DNA of 29,232 nucleotides, taken from positions 1-29,232 of the IMG/VR virus record IMGVR_UViG_3300020187_000153; one strand, written 5' to 3'. The stretch is from a virus. The translations under genes and the position numbers were made by a program. Under the pieces are notes generated by a model. The model saw nothing but the letters and a program-made list of their open reading frames with translations. It was not told where the DNA came from and ran no database searches. Below, one piece after another: positions 15,750 to 27,749 of the stretch (position 1 is the stretch's first letter; every line of letters begins with the position of its first letter).

Positions 15750-17300
15750 TTAGTAAAATCCGCCGCGGCGTTGTTTAAAGAACCGTTCTTCCTCGGGTTC
15801 ATCTGAGGGAAGTCGAATGAATCCCCCCTGTCTAAAGCGCATGAGGGCCATCACTGTAGAGTCCACGAGGTCATCGTTACTCATAAAAGGGAATCCTGCA
15901 ATCTCTTCGACCACTTCTTCTGCCCACCGTGTCTGTGGCACCCAGCACAGGCCAGACGCTACAATGTCAGCGACAGAATTAAGTCTTGCGAGCTTGTCAC
16001 CTGATCCTCGGTGCGGAGTATATTCAGACACCGGTAGACCCATACGTCGCATCTCTTGATACAAGGCCACACCGGAACTTTTCTTCTCCACAATGAAGGA
16101 GTCTGGTTCCCAGTCTCGATACTCTTCCATCGCAAGCTGCTTTAGTTCTGGAAACTCCATACGCTGTTTGATGCTATTTAACAATATAATATTGTAAGCG
16201 TTGTCTTCCTCGTTCAGGAAAACACCCCATGTGGTAAGTGCTGTAAAGTCTGCACGGTTGTGCTTCTCGGCTGCGGCGTCAAGCGACATGATAATATATT
16301 CGCAGGAGGGGGGTTCTTCGGGGGTCCACTCGTTCCACCACTCTCGCTTAACTAGAGCAGCTTCTTCTGTGGTAGGCTGCTGCTGATACTGTGAGTTCCA
16401 CTGGAACACCGGCATAGATGCTTTGGTTCTGAGGAGGGCTTCCAGATCGAAGAACTCAGGCCAGAGAGGCTTCTCAACCATCTTCTTGGTCTTTTTGTCC
16501 TTGATTTCTAGTATCGCGGGAAACTCAACCACCTCGTACTGGTCTGCACGCTCGTTCTTAGCCATATCCCGTGTCACACGGCCTGTGAGGTCGTCAAGAT
16601 GCCAGCGAGTCTGGATAATAGCCACACGGCCTCCGGGCATCAGACGGGTACGGGCACCGAAGGTGAACCACTCGTAGGCCTTCTCAAACACCCCAAAGTT
16701 GCCGTTAATCACGTCTTGCTCTGAGTGGGGGTCGTCGACAAGTAGAAGGTCAGCACCACGTCCCGCAAGCGCGGAACCAATACCACACGCATAGTACTCT
16801 CCCCCTACGTTTGTGTTCCACCGCCCTGCAGACTTACTATCGGCAGCTAGTTTTACCGTAGGAAATATGGACTTGTACGTATCCGTAGCAATCAGGTTAC
16901 GCACCTTACGTCCGAAGTCGACCGCCAGATCAGTGGTGTGAGACACCATCATGACCTTCTTATCCGGGTTACGACCCAAGAACCAAGCAGGGTAGAAGAT
17001 AGACACGAGCTGTGACTTACCGTGACGTGGTGGGATGTTAACACATACCCGGTCCTTATCCCCTCGCTCAATACCCATGAGCATGTTCGCAAGGATGCGG
17101 TGGTGCCTGCCCACAATGAAGTCCGGCATCATCAGTTTGCAGAACTCAATCAGGTCGTCGTACGCGGCTTTGTTCGTGCTTCTCGTGTGCAGCTCGTCGA
17201 CCATCTTGTCGATCTCAAGCACTTCTTCAGCGCTAAACGCGTCCAGATTAGCGAGCATCACTTCAATGTCGTCTTCTGTGAAGTCAGTCAGCTCAGTCAT
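15750..17300 (-). CDS. Terminase large subunit
   Basis: 516 residues from MTELTDFTEDD. ATPase motifs: Walker A PPRHGKSQ (about 90-97) and Walker B LLLVDDPHS (about 185-193). The C-terminal nuclease region includes IIMSLDAAAEKHNRADFTAL (first metal-binding Asp), FIVEKKSSGVAL and the late SNDDLVDSTVMALM. The protein drives DNA packaging into the procapsid and cuts the concatemer. I chose the ATG at 17300, which overlaps the small-subunit stop by 8 nt, over the upstream ATG at 17312. Full-length with both domains intact. Confidence 0.92.
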   Translation of the reverse strand: MTELTDFTEDDIEVMLANLDAFSAEEVLEIDKMVDELHTRSTNKAAYDDLIEFCKLMMPDFIVGRHHRILANMLMGIERGDKDRVCVNIPPRHGKSQLVSIFYPAWFLGRNPDKKVMMVSHTTDLAVDFGRKVRNLIATDTYKSIFPTVKLAADSKSAGRWNTNVGGEYYACGIGSALAGRGADLLLVDDPHSEQDVINGNFGVFEKAYEWFTFGARTRLMPGGRVAIIQTRWHLDDLTGRVTRDMAKNERADQYEVVEFPAILEIKDKKTKKMVEKPLWPEFFDLEALLRTKASMPVFQWNSQYQQQPTTEEAALVKREWWNEWTPEEPPSCEYIIMSLDAAAEKHNRADFTALTTWGVFLNEEDNAYNIILLNSIKQRMEFPELKQLAMEEYRDWEPDSFIVEKKSSGVALYQEMRRMGLPVSEYTPHRGSGDKLARLNSVADIVASGLCWVPQTRWAEEVVEEIAGFPFMSNDDLVDSTVMALMRFRQGGFIRLPSDEPEEERFFKQRRGGFY

Positions 17301-17889
17301 CATCGAACCCAAACTCTTCGTTCAAGTCGTCCTCAGAATCGTTCATGATAATCACGGCGTCTGGCACTTCTTCTGGCGGATTTACCAGCTTTGCGAGCTT
17401 ACCGCGCAGCTTCTCTTTGATGTCGTCCGTTGTTTGGTGTGTGATCGTTACCTCAGACTTCTCTGTGAACAACCCTACGTCTGAAATCTTACCCAGCAGC
17501 TCCAGAGCACGCATCCGCACACGAGGGTCGGGATTCTCCGACTCCATAATGAGCTTGTTCGTGACGAGATTGCGCAGTTGCTTCGATGACTCCACCACAG
17601 AATGGTTAAATTCCTCAATGATAGCACCTGCCATCTTAATAGATGCCGGAGTCAGCTTGGCTGCACGGGTAGTCGTCACCTTACGGGAGGTTTTTTCGGG
17701 GTCTTGGGCAAATGAGGTGGCCAGTGCAGCTGCTACATCCTGATCGTCGGCATCTGGTGTGGTGTCCAGTCCATGATCTTCCAGCAGGGACACTGTTTTA
17801 GCCAACGCAGCAGTGCGTTCTGGTAGCGAAATGGTCTTCGCTTCATCCTCTAGAGGTACACCCAGCTCTGGCGTTACGTTCAATGTCAT
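17293..17889 (-). CDS. Terminase small subunit
   Basis: 198 residues from MTLNVTPELGVPLEDEAK. The conserved core is helical: KLTPASIKMAGAIIEEFNHS, SSKQLRNLVTNKLIMESENP and DPRVRMRALELLGKISDVGL, then FTEKSEVTITHQTTDDIKEK. It recognises the packaging site and stimulates the large subunit. The tail is acidic. A start at 17949 is possible by frame alone, but the promoter at 17921-17949 would place that ATG upstream of the transcript, so the start at 17889 is preferred (leader of about 25 nt). Confidence 0.8.
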   Translation of the reverse strand: MTLNVTPELGVPLEDEAKTISLPERTAALAKTVSLLEDHGLDTTPDADDQDVAAALATSFAQDPEKTSRKVTTTRAAKLTPASIKMAGAIIEEFNHSVVESSKQLRNLVTNKLIMESENPDPRVRMRALELLGKISDVGLFTEKSEVTITHQTTDDIKEKLRGKLAKLVNPPEEVPDAVIIMNDSEDDLNEEFGFDDD

Positions 17890-17920
17890 CTCTATTCGCA
17901 GGTTGTTAACCGGTGACGCA

Positions 17921-17949
17921 ATAATAGGGTGCAAAAAATTTTTTGACAA
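17921..17949 (-). promoter_or_regulatory. Main late promoter, sigma70-like
   Basis: On the minus strand, TTGTCA (17944-17949), a 17-nt spacer that includes an A/T run, and TATTAT (17921-17926). Both boxes differ from consensus by one base. It is positioned to start about 25 nt before the small terminase ATG and would drive the late operon. Confidence 0.7.
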
Positions 17950-18288: not shown

Positions 18289-18801
18289 ATGGGTAATTTT
18301 ACCTTCCAATCCGAACTAGCCAACGCAACTACCGCGCACGTAAAGGCAATCACTGCCGCCGAGAAAAGCGCGGTCAAAATGCTGGACGTCTACCGCGCGT
18401 TGAAGATTCCATACACACACATGATATCGCCGCGCTCAAAGGATAGCACGTGCCCAAGCCAAGAATGGCGCGACGGCCAACGTGACGCAATCGTCGCGGG
18501 ATTTAGCGCCGATGAAAAGCGTATCTTGAAAGCGCCCACAGCGTCGCTGGACGATGCCGCCAAGAAATACAAGGCTAAGACGCAAGCCAAGATTGGTAGT
18601 GTCATGAAAGACATTAAGAACGGTCTTATGCGCAATCCGGACGGCAAAACGCCGACGCAAGCCAAAACAGGTCTGGACAAGGCAAACGCCGACTTCCAAG
18701 CGTATCTTGGCAAGGTCCAGAAATACGAGGATATGCCGTTCGATGTTGTCGAAATGGTAGCACTGCTCAACGCAATGGGCAGTAAGTTTAACCTCAAGTA
18801 A
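18289..18801 (+). CDS. Unknown helical protein, first plus-strand gene
   Basis: 170 residues, basic and helical: MGNFTFQSELANATTAHVKA, IPYTHMISPRSKDSTCPSQE, WRDGQRDAIVAGFSADEKRI and KYKAKTQAKIGSVMKDIKNG. No membrane segment or catalytic motif. GAAAGGAACACAACC before ATG supports the start. Codon choice looks different from the later plus genes (more GCC/CGC and GAC), but I have not measured this. As the first gene beside the divergent region it is a candidate early host-takeover or regulatory protein, inferred from position only. Confidence 0.75.
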   Translation: MGNFTFQSELANATTAHVKAITAAEKSAVKMLDVYRALKIPYTHMISPRSKDSTCPSQEWRDGQRDAIVAGFSADEKRILKAPTASLDDAAKKYKAKTQAKIGSVMKDIKNGLMRNPDGKTPTQAKTGLDKANADFQAYLGKVQKYEDMPFDVVEMVALLNAMGSKFNLK

Positions 18802-19223: not shown

Positions 19224-19252
19224 TTGCAAAGTGTAACGCCTTGGCATATACT
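19224..19252 (+). promoter_or_regulatory. Promoter of the predicted small RNA
   Basis: TTGCAA (19224-19229), a 17-nt spacer, TATACT (19247-19252) with G at -13 (GGCATATACT). A good sigma70-type match, about 7 nt upstream of the predicted RNA start. Confidence 0.6.
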
Positions 19253-19258
19253 GGCACT

Positions 19259-19317
19259 GCATTGCACCACAATGCCTCAAACTGTCTAACTAGGCCCGCT
19301 TCGGCGGGTCTTTTTTT
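19259..19317 (+). ncRNA. Predicted ~59-nt small RNA
   Basis: A transcript from about 19259 to 19317 is bounded by the promoter at 19224-19252 and a terminator (GGCCCGC at 19293-19299, TTCG, GCGGGTC at 19304-19310, seven T). The body includes GCATTGCACCACAATGC (19259-19275), which can itself fold as GCATTG / CAATGC with a 5-nt loop, so the RNA would be two hairpins joined by a short linker. No reading frame with a ribosome site fits inside. A regulatory or copy-control RNA near the candidate origin is inferred. It could also be a decoy or antisense to a distant target. Confidence 0.55.
19293..19317 (+). terminator. Terminator of the small RNA, TTCG loop
   Basis: A 7-bp stem GGCCCGC / GCGGGTC with one G-U pair, a TTCG loop and seven T. 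Same architecture as the terminator 160 nt upstream. Confidence 0.85.
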
Positions 19318-19579: not shown

Positions 19580-19990
19580 CTACCGTGTTCCAAACGGGTT
19601 AGGGCACGTTTGTGCAGCAAACTGCAATGGGCGACAGTTCGCCCTGAAAAAATAACATTAAGAACACCCGCTAAGTCATTGATGTTCCCCGTGTTCCAGA
19701 AAAATAGGGTCAAAAACAGGGTTAAGTCATTGAAAAGAAAGGTTGTTCCATTTGTTCCAAGATATATAGTATATATATAAACCTTTTATTGGACTCTGTG
19801 TGTAAGCACTTACACAGATAAACCCGTTCAGATTCCGAGGGTATACTTTTGGAACATTTGAACTTTGGATCATTCCTTTAAAATCAAGGACTTACAGCGA
19901 CACGTGTTGGAACATACAGTCACAAACCACGGAACACCACCCCTCACCACGAAACACCACCACGTGACAGGCAAATCTTGGAACAGGGCA
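19580..19990. other. Candidate replication origin (mirrored iterons, AT-rich core)
   Basis: TGTTCC(A/C) occurs at 19586, 19683, 19692, 19744 and 19753. Its reverse complement (T/C)GGAACA occurs at 19850, 19908, 19930 and 19979. The two sets point at each other across an AT-rich stretch (GATATATAGTATATATATAA, 19761-19780), a likely unwinding element, and an 18-bp inverted repeat TGTGTAAGCACTTACACA (19799-19816). TAAGTCATTGA also repeats at 19672 and 19732. No protein gene with a ribosome site fits here. This is the classic layout of an iteron origin, but no initiator gene is identified in the window. Confidence 0.55.
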
Positions 19991-20054
19991 CTTCCCCTGC
20001 AATATCAACCACTTGCACACAACACTGTCACAGAACCCCACGAAACACCCTTTC

Positions 20055-20083
20055 TTGACACACCCCGATACTTGTGATACTGT
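20055..20083 (+). promoter_or_regulatory. Early promoter P1, sigma70-like
   Basis: TTGACA (20055-20060), 17-nt spacer, TACTGT (20078-20083). The -10 region and its left flank (ACTTGTGATACTGTG) are almost the same as in promoter P2 at 20508. It would drive the zinc-ribbon gene; palindrome copy 4 lies about 40 nt downstream of the start point, in an operator-like place. Confidence 0.7.
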
Positions 20084-20129
20084 GTTATGAGTAGGACATT
20101 AAAAATCCTGCCAAAGACCAGCTCAACCT

Positions 20130-20458: not shown

Positions 20459-20507
20459 CAGCATAACTTGACACCGTAACGTACTACACACCACAGGATC
20501 ACATAAC

Positions 20508-20536
20508 TTGACACAGGCTACTACTTGTGGTACTGT
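20508..20536 (+). promoter_or_regulatory. Early promoter P2, sigma70-like
   Basis: TTGACA (20508-20513), 17-nt spacer, TACTGT (20531-20536). A second copy of CATAACTTGACAC lies 40 nt upstream (20462-20474) with no good -10, perhaps a decayed duplicate. It drives the DUF3150-like gene and probably the ATPase-VWA cassette. Confidence 0.72.
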
Positions 20537-20572
20537 GGTGTTACGTTACTAATACAACCAATGGAGACTAAC

Positions 20573-22744: not shown

Positions 22745-22915
22745 ATGACTAAAACTTACTACGTGACAGTGGAAGGCATTGTAGCGCGGGAGTTCCGCGT
22801 CGATGCAGAGAACTCATATCAAGCAGGGGAATGGGCCAAAGCCGATTTCAAAAACGAACTGGGCACTGACGTGGCTCAAGTAATCAGAGTAAACAAGGAG
22901 AAGACCAATGACTAA
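22745..22915 (+). CDS. Small protein of unknown function
   Basis: 56 residues: MTKTYYVTVEGIVAREFRVD, AENSYQAGEWAKADFKNELG, then TDVAQVIRVNKEKTND. An alpha/beta pattern resembling a small beta-beta-alpha unit; no motif. GAGGAGATAAC precedes ATG. It overlaps the next gene start by 8 nt. Probably part of the ATPase operon. Confidence 0.65.
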   Translation: MTKTYYVTVEGIVAREFRVDAENSYQAGEWAKADFKNELGTDVAQVIRVNKEKTND

Positions 22916-23423
22916 GCAATGGGCAGAAAAAGAAGTAGTGACACTGGGTAAACTACGGCGCAGTGGCACGTCATACCGAACTATTGGTGAGATACTTGGG
23001 CGGTCCACCGCATCGTGCCGACAAAAAGCGTTCCATCTGGGTGTCGCTAAACCACATCGCAAAGAGCAGCCTGCGCAGGAACAACAAAGGAAAAGACCAA
23101 TGGCTAAACGTAAGAATACCAAGTGGACCAAGGAACTGGATGCGGAACTGGTATCACTGAGAGAGCTGGGTGTGAAACCGCGTGACGTTGCTACCATCAT
23201 GAAGCTACCGCGCTCTGTAATCTACAGCCGCAGTGCCACACTCGGTGTGACGAAGACCAGTGCGCAGCTCGAGATGGACCTGCAGGTAGCACCCGCTACC
23301 GAACCGACCAAACAGGTAGCACCCGCTACCAAAACAGAGTTTAGGGAATCCCCTAAAACACAAATCGACCAACCCAAACCAAAACCCACATGGTGGAAGC
23401 AGATGATGTGGTGGAGAAACTGA
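22908..23423 (+). CDS. Double GcrA-like/HTH DNA-binding protein
   Basis: 171 residues with two tandem tri-helical units: residues 5-46 (WAEKEVVTLGKLRRSGTSYR ... AFHLGV) and 73-114 (WTKELDAELVSLRELGVKPR ... SATLGV). Both follow the W-E-L-L-L-G-x-S-I-L-S-R-LG pattern of the GcrA N-terminal domain and related Myb/HTH proteins. In Alphaproteobacteria GcrA activates genes with GANTC-methylated promoters. An internal ATG at 23100 has its own ribosome site (AAAGGAAAAGACC), so a 107-residue single-domain form may also be made. The C-terminal linker contains two APAT repeats and palindrome copy 7. The tail is W-rich. Transcriptional regulation is inferred. Confidence 0.72.
   Translation: MTKQWAEKEVVTLGKLRRSGTSYRTIGEILGRSTASCRQKAFHLGVAKPHRKEQPAQEQQRKRPMAKRKNTKWTKELDAELVSLRELGVKPRDVATIMKLPRSVIYSRSATLGVTKTSAQLEMDLQVAPATEPTKQVAPATKTEFRESPKTQIDQPKPKPTWWKQMMWWRN
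23285..23330 (+). repeat. Two identical hairpins in the HTH gene
   Basis: GGTAGCACCCGCTACC occurs at 23285-23300 and 23315-23330: perfect 6-bp stems with ACCC loops, 30 nt apart, in frame and encoding VAPAT twice. Palindrome copy 7 begins 9 nt later. Confidence 0.85.
23340..23357. repeat. 18-bp palindrome, copy 7 (GAATC core, inside coding sequence)
   Basis: TTTAGGGAATCCCCTAAA, read in the HTH gene as FRESPK and placed 67 nt before the ATG of the VWA gene. Confidence 0.9.
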
Positions 23424-25231: not shown

Positions 25232-26266
25232 ATGGCACTAACATTCACAAACTTTGAATCATTCAAAGAAGTAGAGGCGGCGTACAACAACATCACACCC
25301 CTACGTGGTAGCACCAACGCTGGTAAGGACATCCGACCTATCGGTGATCGCAATCGTAAGTGGGAGCGTATCGTCAAGATCAGCCCCAACTGCTACGCGC
25401 TATCTGAGGGCTATCACTTCGGTGACGAACACTTCGGCCAGTGGTTTTATGGTGCGAACTTCACACCCACACTGAAAGGCATGGAGAAGTATGCACCCAT
25501 CGTGTGGCGTAAGAAACGTGATGGCACAGAAGAAGTTACATTACGCAACGGGTTTGGTGAGAGTGCGCACATCGGACGGTATCAATTCCTATACCGCCAT
25601 ACACCCAAGGGTATGTGGTACCGCAATCGCAACAATAAACACTTCATCCAGAACGGGGCTACAGACCACTACCACTACATTGCCAAGACACGCACTGCGC
25701 CGAAACCCATGTACGACGCGATCATGAAAAACACGTCAACACATTACTGGCAGAAGCGCCACAAGAAGTGGGTTATGGCGCACGACGACAACTCCGCGGT
25801 TACGTTCCGTAAGAACGAGCACGGTGGCTGGGATCACGTCGAGGGCACAGGCAGAAACTTAGAAGAAGCCAAGAGACCAACAGTCAAGAAGGAACTCAAA
25901 GCCAAATACAAAGACGCAATCAAGTCGTTCTTCGAGTGGGGTATGACCATGTCACCACTGCTACCGCTGGAAGACCGCGGCTATCGGCACACTCACTGGC
26001 ATGAGCTACAAGAGCATTTCGCAGTCAGACACAGCCCTGTGCGGGGACTGCCGAAACCCGTGGACCTGCGCAAAATCGTGTCGGACGAGGACCACCCAAT
26101 GCGCCTGTCACTGTGGGTTCTGTTTGCCGGTGACTGCACTGAAAGTGAGTGGGTTAAAAATCGCAAGTTTTACTGCAAGACCGTCGAGACTAAGGAAGAC
26201 CTGCAACGTGTGCGCTCACGCTACAACACGTTCATCAACAAAAAACTAGCCTTCATGACTAAGTAA
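25232..26266 (+). CDS. Unknown 344-residue phage protein
   Basis: An N-terminal region (FESFKEVEAAYNNITPLRGS) is followed by a beta-rich part (IVKISPNCYALSEGYHFGDE, GQWFYGANFTPTLKGMEKYA), an aromatic basic centre (GMWYRNRNNKHFIQNGATDH) and a C-terminal helical region (KELKAKYKDAIKSFFEWGMT). Rich in W, Y, H. GGAGACTAATCA before ATG matches the conserved leader of the other early genes. Proteins like this accompany the next gene in related phages, in my recollection, but no function is known. Confidence 0.72.
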   Translation: MALTFTNFESFKEVEAAYNNITPLRGSTNAGKDIRPIGDRNRKWERIVKISPNCYALSEGYHFGDEHFGQWFYGANFTPTLKGMEKYAPIVWRKKRDGTEEVTLRNGFGESAHIGRYQFLYRHTPKGMWYRNRNNKHFIQNGATDHYHYIAKTRTAPKPMYDAIMKNTSTHYWQKRHKKWVMAHDDNSAVTFRKNEHGGWDHVEGTGRNLEEAKRPTVKKELKAKYKDAIKSFFEWGMTMSPLLPLEDRGYRHTHWHELQEHFAVRHSPVRGLPKPVDLRKIVSDEDHPMRLSLWVLFAGDCTESEWVKNRKFYCKTVETKEDLQRVRSRYNTFINKKLAFMTK

Positions 26267-26281
26267 CCAAAGGATCAAATC

Positions 26282-27151
26282 ATGCCATACGAACATACCC
26301 CTGTAGCAGGACTACATATAGCTACCCGCACGCAACCATACCAACTAGAGGAGTTTGCCCAAGCCCTACGCCGAACCAACCGAAAGCTGAAGACAGAGCC
26401 GAGAGATGATACCTCTATGTGGGTGTATGCCGACGACGAACTCATGACACGTGGGTGGATTGGACACGGCAACTTTGGGCGCGCACGGCACGGTCAAAAC
26501 AAGTTTGTTGTATCTGCTCGAAGTATAACAAACTGCAAGTATGCAGATCACTCTGTGCAACATCATATGAAGATGTCTGTGAACATGGACCCAGTGTTGA
26601 AAGCTGCCAAAGGCCACCTGACCAAATACACCACGCATGAGGTGGAGAGGGTATACCGCCGCGCGGTTCGAGAGAAAGTCAACAACAAGCGTGACACTCT
26701 GAGAAGCCAAGAGCTTAGTGCGTTGTCCAGCACAGGGCTGTCGGTATACGGAACATCAAACGGAAAGATAATACAGGAGTTAAGACACCTAGTCATGTCG
26801 GGACACACGTTCGCTGACCCGCAGTTTGGGCAGGACGTACAGCTGTTGTTGGAGGCAAAGGAAGCCCTGAGTTGTCTACCTAACGTAGTGCCTATGGACT
26901 TTGTACACATCTACCCAACCCCATGGGAGACCCGTGCTGACATACTGGCTGTGCCTGACGCACTGTCAGCTTTTTACGGTGGCACACCCACACAACTTAC
27001 ATGGGTGGCTGAGGAACTGCCCGAGAGTGTCATGGGTAAGATCGCTGTCATGCAGATGTGTGAGGACGGGCAGTATGTCGACGGTGTTGGCTTGCGCGTA
27101 AACGAGAGCACGTTCTACCTACACAAAGAAAGTGATGATACATGGAAGTAA
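26282..27151 (+). CDS. Unknown 289-residue phage protein
   Basis: Mostly helical in the first two thirds (EEFAQALRRTNRKLKTEPRD, MSVNMDPVLKAAKGHLTKYT, RRAVREKVNNKRDTLRSQEL) and more mixed later (PMDFVHIYPTPWETRADILA). AAGGATCAAATC before ATG is a good ribosome site; the gap from the previous gene is 15 nt. No motif recognised. It overlaps the next gene by 10 nt. Confidence 0.7.
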   Translation: MPYEHTPVAGLHIATRTQPYQLEEFAQALRRTNRKLKTEPRDDTSMWVYADDELMTRGWIGHGNFGRARHGQNKFVVSARSITNCKYADHSVQHHMKMSVNMDPVLKAAKGHLTKYTTHEVERVYRRAVREKVNNKRDTLRSQELSALSSTGLSVYGTSNGKIIQELRHLVMSGHTFADPQFGQDVQLLLEAKEALSCLPNVVPMDFVHIYPTPWETRADILAVPDALSAFYGGTPTQLTWVAEELPESVMGKIAVMQMCEDGQYVDGVGLRVNESTFYLHKESDDTWK

Positions 27152-27393
27152 CCGATGATAATACCTACCGCGTGTTGATACAGAACAATACCGAACACGT
27201 CGAGGTGATGTGTTTTGGTATGGATAGTGTTGACCCCGACGCGGAAGGTAGGTACAATTCTGTACACGACTTACCCATTTGGATTCAGACTAAGCTATCT
27301 ATGTTAATGATGCTGGACGTACCGCCCCCTCTAAACGAGGTCAAAGGTGTGGGTAGCCGCATAGGTCCGTCACTCTACTGGGTATACAAATAG
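27142..27393 (+). CDS. Small acidic protein, unknown function
   Basis: 83 residues: MEVTDDNTYRVLIQNNTEHV, EVMCFGMDSVDPDAEGRYNS, then HDLPIWIQTKLSMLMMLDVP. A beta N-terminal half and a helical second half. It overlaps the previous gene by 10 nt and ends 2 nt before palindrome copy 9. Function unknown. Confidence 0.68.
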   Translation: MEVTDDNTYRVLIQNNTEHVEVMCFGMDSVDPDAEGRYNSVHDLPIWIQTKLSMLMMLDVPPPLNEVKGVGSRIGPSLYWVYK

Positions 27394-27446: not shown

Positions 27447-27749
27447 ATTACACCTGAAGCTAAAGTTAAAAAAGTTGTCGTCAAACACCTCAAAGACTTA
27501 GGTGCGTACTATTTCTACCCCGCTACAGGTGGATACGGAAAGAGTGGGGTTCCCGATATTGTCGGGTGCCACGCAGGTCTATTCTTTGGGTTCGAATGTA
27601 AGGCTGGCAAGAACACAGCCACGCCCTTGCAGGAGAAGAACCTAAGAGAGATCAAAGCAGCTGGTGGGTTAGACCTCATCGTAAACGAAGACAACATGCA
27701 CGATGTATCAGACATCCTGACATCGTGGGCCAACATCAAACAAAGCTAA
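27447..27749 (+). CDS. VRR-NUC family nuclease with ATT start
   Basis: 100 residues. Motifs: GGYGKSGVPDIVG (28-40) with the catalytic Asp of PDIV, FECKAG (49-54) with the E-x-K pair, and Gln62. This is the PD-(D/E)xK signature of the VRR-NUC family, which cleaves branched or flapped DNA; stand-alone phage versions are common. No ATG, GTG or TTG lies near the ribosome site. AAGGAG (27434-27439) is followed by 7 nt and then ATT, and the sequence after it (TPEAKVKK) matches the usual N-terminus of this family, so ATT is called as the start. It ends 10 nt before the next gene. Confidence 0.75.
   Translation: MTPEAKVKKVVVKHLKDLGAYYFYPATGGYGKSGVPDIVGCHAGLFFGFECKAGKNTATPLQEKNLREIKAAGGLDLIVNEDNMHDVSDILTSWANIKQS

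Follow-up and report, generated by a model that had tools for sequence, protein, structure and literature searches.

This locus raises the question of why a phage should carry a cluster of short, oppositely oriented boxes around an AT-rich core, and which protein would read them. The window, i.e. the whole stretch of DNA analyzed here, is an IMG/VR virus record of 29,232 bases and represents a piece of a ~62-kb uncultured aquatic phage. Structural genes run leftward from ~17.9 kb and early genes rightward from ~18.3 kb, and the region of interest (19580–19990) sits in a non-coding stretch of ~900 bp within the early side. Megablast comparison of the window with phage records gave no match. By terminase, the nearest cultured phages include the Pelagibacter phages HTVC027P and HTVC023P and phage DSL-LC04 (44–48% identity); Propionibacterium phage PA6 was considered as a relative and dropped because its gene content did not match. 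A scan of bacterial and archaeal genomes revealed no host, only one weak match (27% over part of an ATPase), and Rfam search of the region returned sub-threshold matches only. The reading favored here, with a probability of about 0.78, is that the region is an IHF-assisted iteron origin of this integrase-less phage, and that its boxes would be read by the phage's own primase-DUF927 helicase.

The initial annotation described five TGTTCC boxes on the left and four GGAACA boxes on the right facing an AT-rich core, and this arrangement was borne out. In the left arm, all on the + strand, TGTTCCA is present at 19586–19592 (L1, an outlying box), 19692–19698 (L3), 19744–19750 (L4) and 19753–19759 (L5), and TGTTCC at 19683–19688 (L2). 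In the right arm, all on the − strand, TGGAACA is present at 19850–19856 (R1), 19908–19914 (R2) and 19979–19985 (R4), and GGAACA at 19931–19936 (R3); the GGAACA hexamers start at 19851, 19909, 19931 and 19980. Orientation is uniform in each arm, every left copy pointing one way and every right copy the opposite way. Nine of the 19 copies of the box in the window fall within these 411 bases, compared with 0.14 expected at the background rate of the window (Poisson P 5.9e-14). Even the outlying L1 is retained in close relatives, at ~180–210 nt to the left of the reference point. When the window was first scanned for pairs of boxes a set distance apart, no hit was obtained. Identity with LexA-type or DnaA-type boxes was entertained and rejected; the boxes are spaced 8 to 11 nt apart.

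The AT-rich core, placed by the initial annotation at 19761–19780, was also confirmed: the AT-richest 40 bp of the window start at 19750–19752 (82.5% AT). By AT content, the presumed unwinding site is AGATATATAGTATATATATAAACC (19760–19783), and a TATATATA core is retained in close relatives. The 18-bp inverted repeat reported beside it is present at 19799–19816 as an imperfect palindrome, TGTGTAAG-CA-CTTACACA. By eye, it was found in one relative (L002) and was absent from two others (L003 and L009), and is therefore not a conserved part of the region.

A repeat said to accompany the left boxes with 60-nt spacing, TAAGTCATTGA, does occur there in two copies on the − strand (19672–19682 and 19723–19733), with a spacing of 51 nt rather than 60. 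This repeat is the reverse complement of TCAATGACTTA and fits the IHF consensus, WATCARNNNNTTR. A third copy, inverted and with one change, lies in the right arm (19884–19894), where the consensus match AATCAAGGACTTA covers 19882–19894 on the + strand, inverted relative to the left ones; a further match, TATCAACCACTTG, is found at 20003–20015 (+). In 50 regions, 61 full matches to the consensus were counted against 3.9 in shuffles, which preserved base composition within each half but not dinucleotides; L090 and L091, which are coding repeats, and L117 are excluded from this count. The orientation of the core motif is mirrored, with 69 reverse and 1 forward in the left arm and 44 forward and 3 reverse in the right arm. 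Variation of the site among relatives is concentrated at the N and R positions of the consensus (TCAGATACTTA, TCAACGTGTTA, TCAAGGACTTG). By consensus and orientation, these mirror-placed elements are candidate IHF sites.

Relatives were collected from viral contigs by a DUF3150 protein scan (25 loci) and by a MoxR-type ATPase alignment scan, from which the best 80 of 340 confirmed loci were taken. Of the loci obtained, 74 that were distinct and had upstream DNA of 1.5 kb or more were scored for a mirror array of one hexamer. A score of at least 5 was reached in 68 of the 74 loci and of at least 7 in 54, whereas the corresponding numbers were 8 and 0 of 222 dinucleotide shuffles, and 5 and 0 of 64 stretches of downstream DNA. 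The loci scoring below 5 were L105, L121, L123, L126, L141 and G007; the G007 contig begins after the region, and its helicase is identical to that of G003. L117 was counted as a match; its array is lopsided (9+1) and possibly of another nature.

Conservation of box spacing in relatives had been named beforehand as a check that could refute the origin, and the spacing was found to be conserved, for example −82, −73, −62, −20 and −12 on the left and about +80 to +106 and +145 on the right of the reference point. The box sequence itself varies between relatives (TGTTCC, TGTACC, AGTTCC, TGTTCG, TGTTCT, TATTCG and others) and is often uniform within a genome. In most of the ten near-complete relatives, the GC skew has a turning point close to the region; since gene orientation turns there too, the skew decides nothing about an origin. 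Rollin and RHph_TM27A, two cultured phages that encode a related helicase, gave no array scoring at least 7 in a scan that ignored all-A/T words and would have overlooked boxes made of A and T alone.

The initial annotation argued for host dependence on the ground that no polymerase is visible. This argument is not supported, as it rests on a cut-off contig: polymerase A and the primase-DUF927 helicase are encoded in all ten near-complete relatives (60.7–65.9 kb). Genome G001 also encodes a PD-(D/E)XK exonuclease, a SNF2-type helicase and a gp2.5-like SSB alongside, and the expected places of these replication genes lie past the right end of the window. A tyrosine integrase (PF00589), a resolvase-type recombinase (PF00239) and a Rep_3 initiator (PF01051) were each found in none of the ten. 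In G001 the helicase gene (44534–47344, 936 aa) is separated by 16.9 kb from the origin region, whose core lies near 27666. The proposal of a host-dependent origin is thus retained in its first half, the origin being favored by comparison (arrays in 68 of 74 loci, IHF sites, core and co-variation), and is unsupported as to the host. It was also observed that the Rhizobium phage RHph_TM27A has the same gene order (ATPase, metallopeptidase, polymerase I, RecB-type exonuclease, SNF2 helicase, DUF927), and that its DUF927 helicase relative (L333:22248-25331) is annotated as a 'putative integrase', which is probably wrong.

The 936-aa protein of G001 contains DUF927 (PF06048, E 8e-23), and its N-terminal primase-like part weakly matches the PrimPol AEP domain 6zp9 (E 0.23). 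Sequence matches were obtained to the SaPIbov1 initiator, SaPI Rep (8tch, E 6.6e-14), and to SCCmec Cch (5dgk, E 0.006), and on these matches the helicase belongs with SaPI Rep and Cch. According to the accessible part of one report, the C-terminal domain of SaPI Rep recognizes its iterons, the origin being made of short repeats, and the DUF927-containing Cch is related to SaPIbov1 Rep (PMC7581432). The C-terminal 197 residues of the phage helicase were modeled from 38 sequences (pLDDT 80.5). Foldseek gave 5dgk as the best match to this model (E 0.058, probability 0.93), and VIA-align placed 5dgk (Z 8.8) and 8tch (Z 8.2) first, followed by winged-helix DNA-binding domains; these Z values are only modestly above those of unrelated models, and chance matches occur at such values. 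The model suggests that the domain shares the 5dgk/8tch fold and is a candidate for the iteron-reading domain. Residues 903 and 918 correspond to model residues 164 and 179 on successive strands (161–165 and 178–184) after the last helix, and in the model they lie in the wing.

These two residues were found by comparing helicases between box classes, a separating column being one that is invariant within each class and different between classes. In the first six genomes of the window's branch, five helicase columns (169, 675, 739, 903 and 918) separated the TGTACC and TGTTCC classes. Of these, 903 and 918 alone remained when G028 (TGTACC, Q/R) and G031 (TGTTCC, K/W) were read after the columns had been chosen, and a third genome read in this way, G052, with AGTTCC boxes (T at position 4), has K/W. 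Nine genomes of the branch contain both boxes and helicase; among them, Q903/R918 is present in 3 of 3 GTACC genomes and K903/W918 in 6 of 6 GTTCC genomes, the boxes of G005 (AGTACC/TGTACC) having been read by eye where the automatic scorer picked another word. Over the 12 protein families common to all nine genomes, 903 and 918 are the only ones of 4032 ungapped columns that separate the classes strictly, and when these genomes are divided 3/6 in the 83 other ways, 6 of the divisions give as many strict helicase columns. The co-variation rests on nine genomes and three switches, all in relatives, the window stopping short of the helicase gene. Suspicion as box readers had first fallen on the HTH protein and on the early proteins of 344 aa and 289 aa, and none of these was seen to follow box class (1 loose and 0 separating columns in the 344-aa and 289-aa families).

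In a tree of 21 helicases from which the C-terminus was omitted, the state A at the fourth box position requires 3 changes and forms one clade in 0 of 200 bootstraps; this tree leaves out G010, G017 and G019 (no array called) and G022 (mixed boxes) and keeps G012 with its array score of 4. Common descent therefore does not explain the match between box and helicase, and on this tree the boxes switched at least three times. In a larger tree, the 48 sequences of the branch comprised 26 KW, 20 QR and 2 TR pairs and never KR or QW, QR requiring at least 5 changes. In the deep branch, K903 was found in 11 of 11 T-type genomes placed in the tree, including G012, whose array is below threshold. Also in this branch, G022 has K903 though 2 of its 7 boxes are TGTAGC, and G039, with ATGTCG boxes of ambiguous alignment, has R903.

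On the basis of the anatomy of the region, its conservation, the consensus matches, the helicase family and the co-variation, all of which were observed in the sequences, we infer the following course of binding, bending, melting, loading and direction of copying. The C-terminal winged-helix domain of the helicase would bind the hexamer boxes on both sides, and host IHF would bend the DNA at the sites inside both arms, bringing both box arrays to the AT-rich core. The core would then melt, and the helicase, acting as a self-loading initiator, would be loaded as one ring per side. The fused primase would lay primers, after which phage polymerase A would take over for two-way copying. The box would serve as a changeable address, the base at box position 4 being read, or its recognition strongly influenced, by wing residues 903 and 918 (Q/R for A, K/W for T). 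It may tentatively be proposed, at somewhat under even odds, that helicase and origin share a readable code in which 903 and 918 set one box base, and that this pair and all the boxes switched together repeatedly in free-living phages. Such switches would give mutually incompatible replication addresses, perhaps escaping satellites, decoys or co-infecting relatives that use the same helicase.

The surroundings of the region contain several other elements. A sigma70-like promoter, TTGACA...TACTGT, was read in the sequence at the right edge of the region (20055–20083, +); a consensus promoter scan did not list it. It belongs to one of two similar early promoter regions, 20054–20084 and 20507–20537 (similar copy at 20508), which have CTTGACACA and TACTTGTGRTACTGTG in common, as if there were an extra shared element. 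Two terminators lie left of the region. At 19224–19312 (+), a promoter-like site (19224–19252) is followed by a short hairpin and a terminator (19292–19311), possibly giving an RNA of ~60 nt; by eye, relatives carry a similar form, and Rfam matches were below threshold. The 28-bp element GATACCAGTTCCTTAGATAGCGTAGCGC occurs in three copies (19189, 19343 and 19552), and in relatives of all box classes looked at by eye similar elements usually come directly after a palindrome. The ORF at 22908–23423 (+) encodes a 171-aa protein in which two Myb/GcrA-like helix-turn-helix units stand in tandem; in several relatives a single unit is present, its place in the early operon varies, and in G001 it lies beside a DUF5710 part.

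The palindrome in question, TTTAGGG-4 nt-CCCTAAA, is present in nine stoperator-like copies of 18 bp on the early side, mostly in intergenic gaps (18131, 19320, 19528, 20130, 20608, 21603, 23340, 25194 and 27396). In relatives its arms change to TTCGGGC, GTTAGGG, GTTAGTG or TTTACGG, and this switch is independent of box class. The sequence type of the 170-aa gene left of the region (18289–18801, +) tracks palindrome class and not box class: one type was found in 10 loci, all TTTAGGG, with TGTTCC or TGTACC boxes, and the type of G001 has matches only in TTCGGGC genomes among those compared. The protein model is all-helical (pLDDT 84.9), fold search gave no useful match, and the protein is a candidate palindrome-binding regulator. 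A conserved small protein of 83 aa (27142–27393, +) has an identity that follows palindrome class, against the trend of neighboring genes, in the middle branch; the window itself departs from this trend.

Other functions can be considered for the region. Rather than an origin, the boxes and IHF sites could form an operator array that controls the early promoter at 20055, and the location in the early operon, the promoter 70 bp past the last box, the two terminators on the left and the palindromes of another regulatory family all fit transcription control. This is nevertheless unlikely: among proteins, co-variation with the boxes was found for the primase-helicase alone, which is no regulator, the early proteins and HTH-type genes that were inspected show no such link, and mirror arrays around the AT maximum would be needless for a single rightward promoter. 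Alternatively, an origin of the same kind could be read by another phage or host initiator, with the helicase residues following by coincidence or through an indirect link. The HTH, 344-aa and 289-aa proteins are missing from some of the nine genomes and are thus less fully tested in this role. The column counts of the latter two families (1 loose, 0 separating), the wing position of 903 and 918 and the precedent of SaPI Rep favor the helicase, and a different reader appears improbable.

A packaging site (cos or pac) bound by small terminase and IHF, as in lambda cosB, would account for the nearby terminase genes and for IHF sites beside repeated boxes. Moreover, the contigs of three of the ten near-complete relatives (G010, G013 and G014) end between terminase and the DUF3150 gene, near the region, which could reflect either an assembly break or a real genome end. 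The protein beside the large terminase (17293–17949; 25613–26428 in G001), to which a putative small-terminase role is assigned from its position, has 0 of 197 columns separating the box classes, the arrays point inward from both sides, and G011 closes into a circle through a 127-base overlap, probably an assembly overlap; packaging is considered very unlikely. In the lambda attP plan, an AT-rich core is flanked by arm-type boxes and IHF sites, and the region resembles it in this arrangement. An attachment site is scarcely credible here, given that neither PF00589 nor PF00239 occurs in the ten near-complete relatives and that the scan of bacterial and archaeal genomes gave nothing beyond the weak ATPase match.

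The iteron origin read by the primase-DUF927 helicase can be compared with several known replicons. In R6K, pSC101 and oriC, initiator boxes, an AT-rich unwinding element and an IHF bend are combined as proposed here; these systems differ in that the boxes are one-sided and the initiators are of the Rep_3 or DnaA type. In satellite phage P4 (ori1/crr), the alpha protein is a primase-helicase that recognizes short repeats beside an AT-rich region. Alpha belongs to a different helicase family from the DUF927 helicase.

A close parallel is with the SaPI/PICI replicons. In the SaPIbov1 Rep replicon, of the DUF927 class, two iteron sets flank an AT-rich region, according to a figure legend (Fig. 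2 of PMC6092414). In the phage region, too, an AT-rich core lies between two sets of short boxes that face inward, and the candidate initiator is a DUF927 helicase with the same predicted C-terminal fold, here fused to a primase-like part, and in both cases specificity differs among relatives. Unlike in SaPI/PICI, where the origin is directly downstream of rep, origin and helicase gene are far apart (16.9 kb in G001), the genome is that of a ~62-kb phage without integrase, and IHF-consensus sites occupy mirror places. The element is not a PICI, because no integrase was found, the origin is distant from the helicase gene and the phage genome is large.

A parallel for the joint change of box and reader is provided by the PLE satellites of Vibrio cholerae, in which, as far as the accessible text goes, the DNA-binding domain of RepA and the origin iterons change together, more than once, apparently in escape from an origin-cutting nuclease of the parasitized phage (PMC8263062). 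Box and helicase residues likewise co-change repeatedly here. The accessible account of PLE describes RepA_N, ~30-bp semi-palindromic iterons and whole-domain swaps, unlike the two-residue switch seen here. By analogy, it is conceivable that the phage address changes under pressure similar to the one that PLE escapes. The accessible text of the literature surveyed (including PMC6092414, PMC7581432, PMC8263062, PMC11447400 and PMC9599517, with few subscription papers) contains no description of this origin or of the 903/918 pair.

The plan and the initiator family are thus known from SaPI/PICI replicons, and here they occur in a large group of integrase-less phages. Naturally occurring box and wing variants offer a direct means of testing how a self-loading helicase recognizes its origin, and how origin specificity changes without killing the replicon. 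Moreover, the presence of a SaPI/PICI-like plan and helicase family in such a phage group bears on the source of the satellites' replicons.
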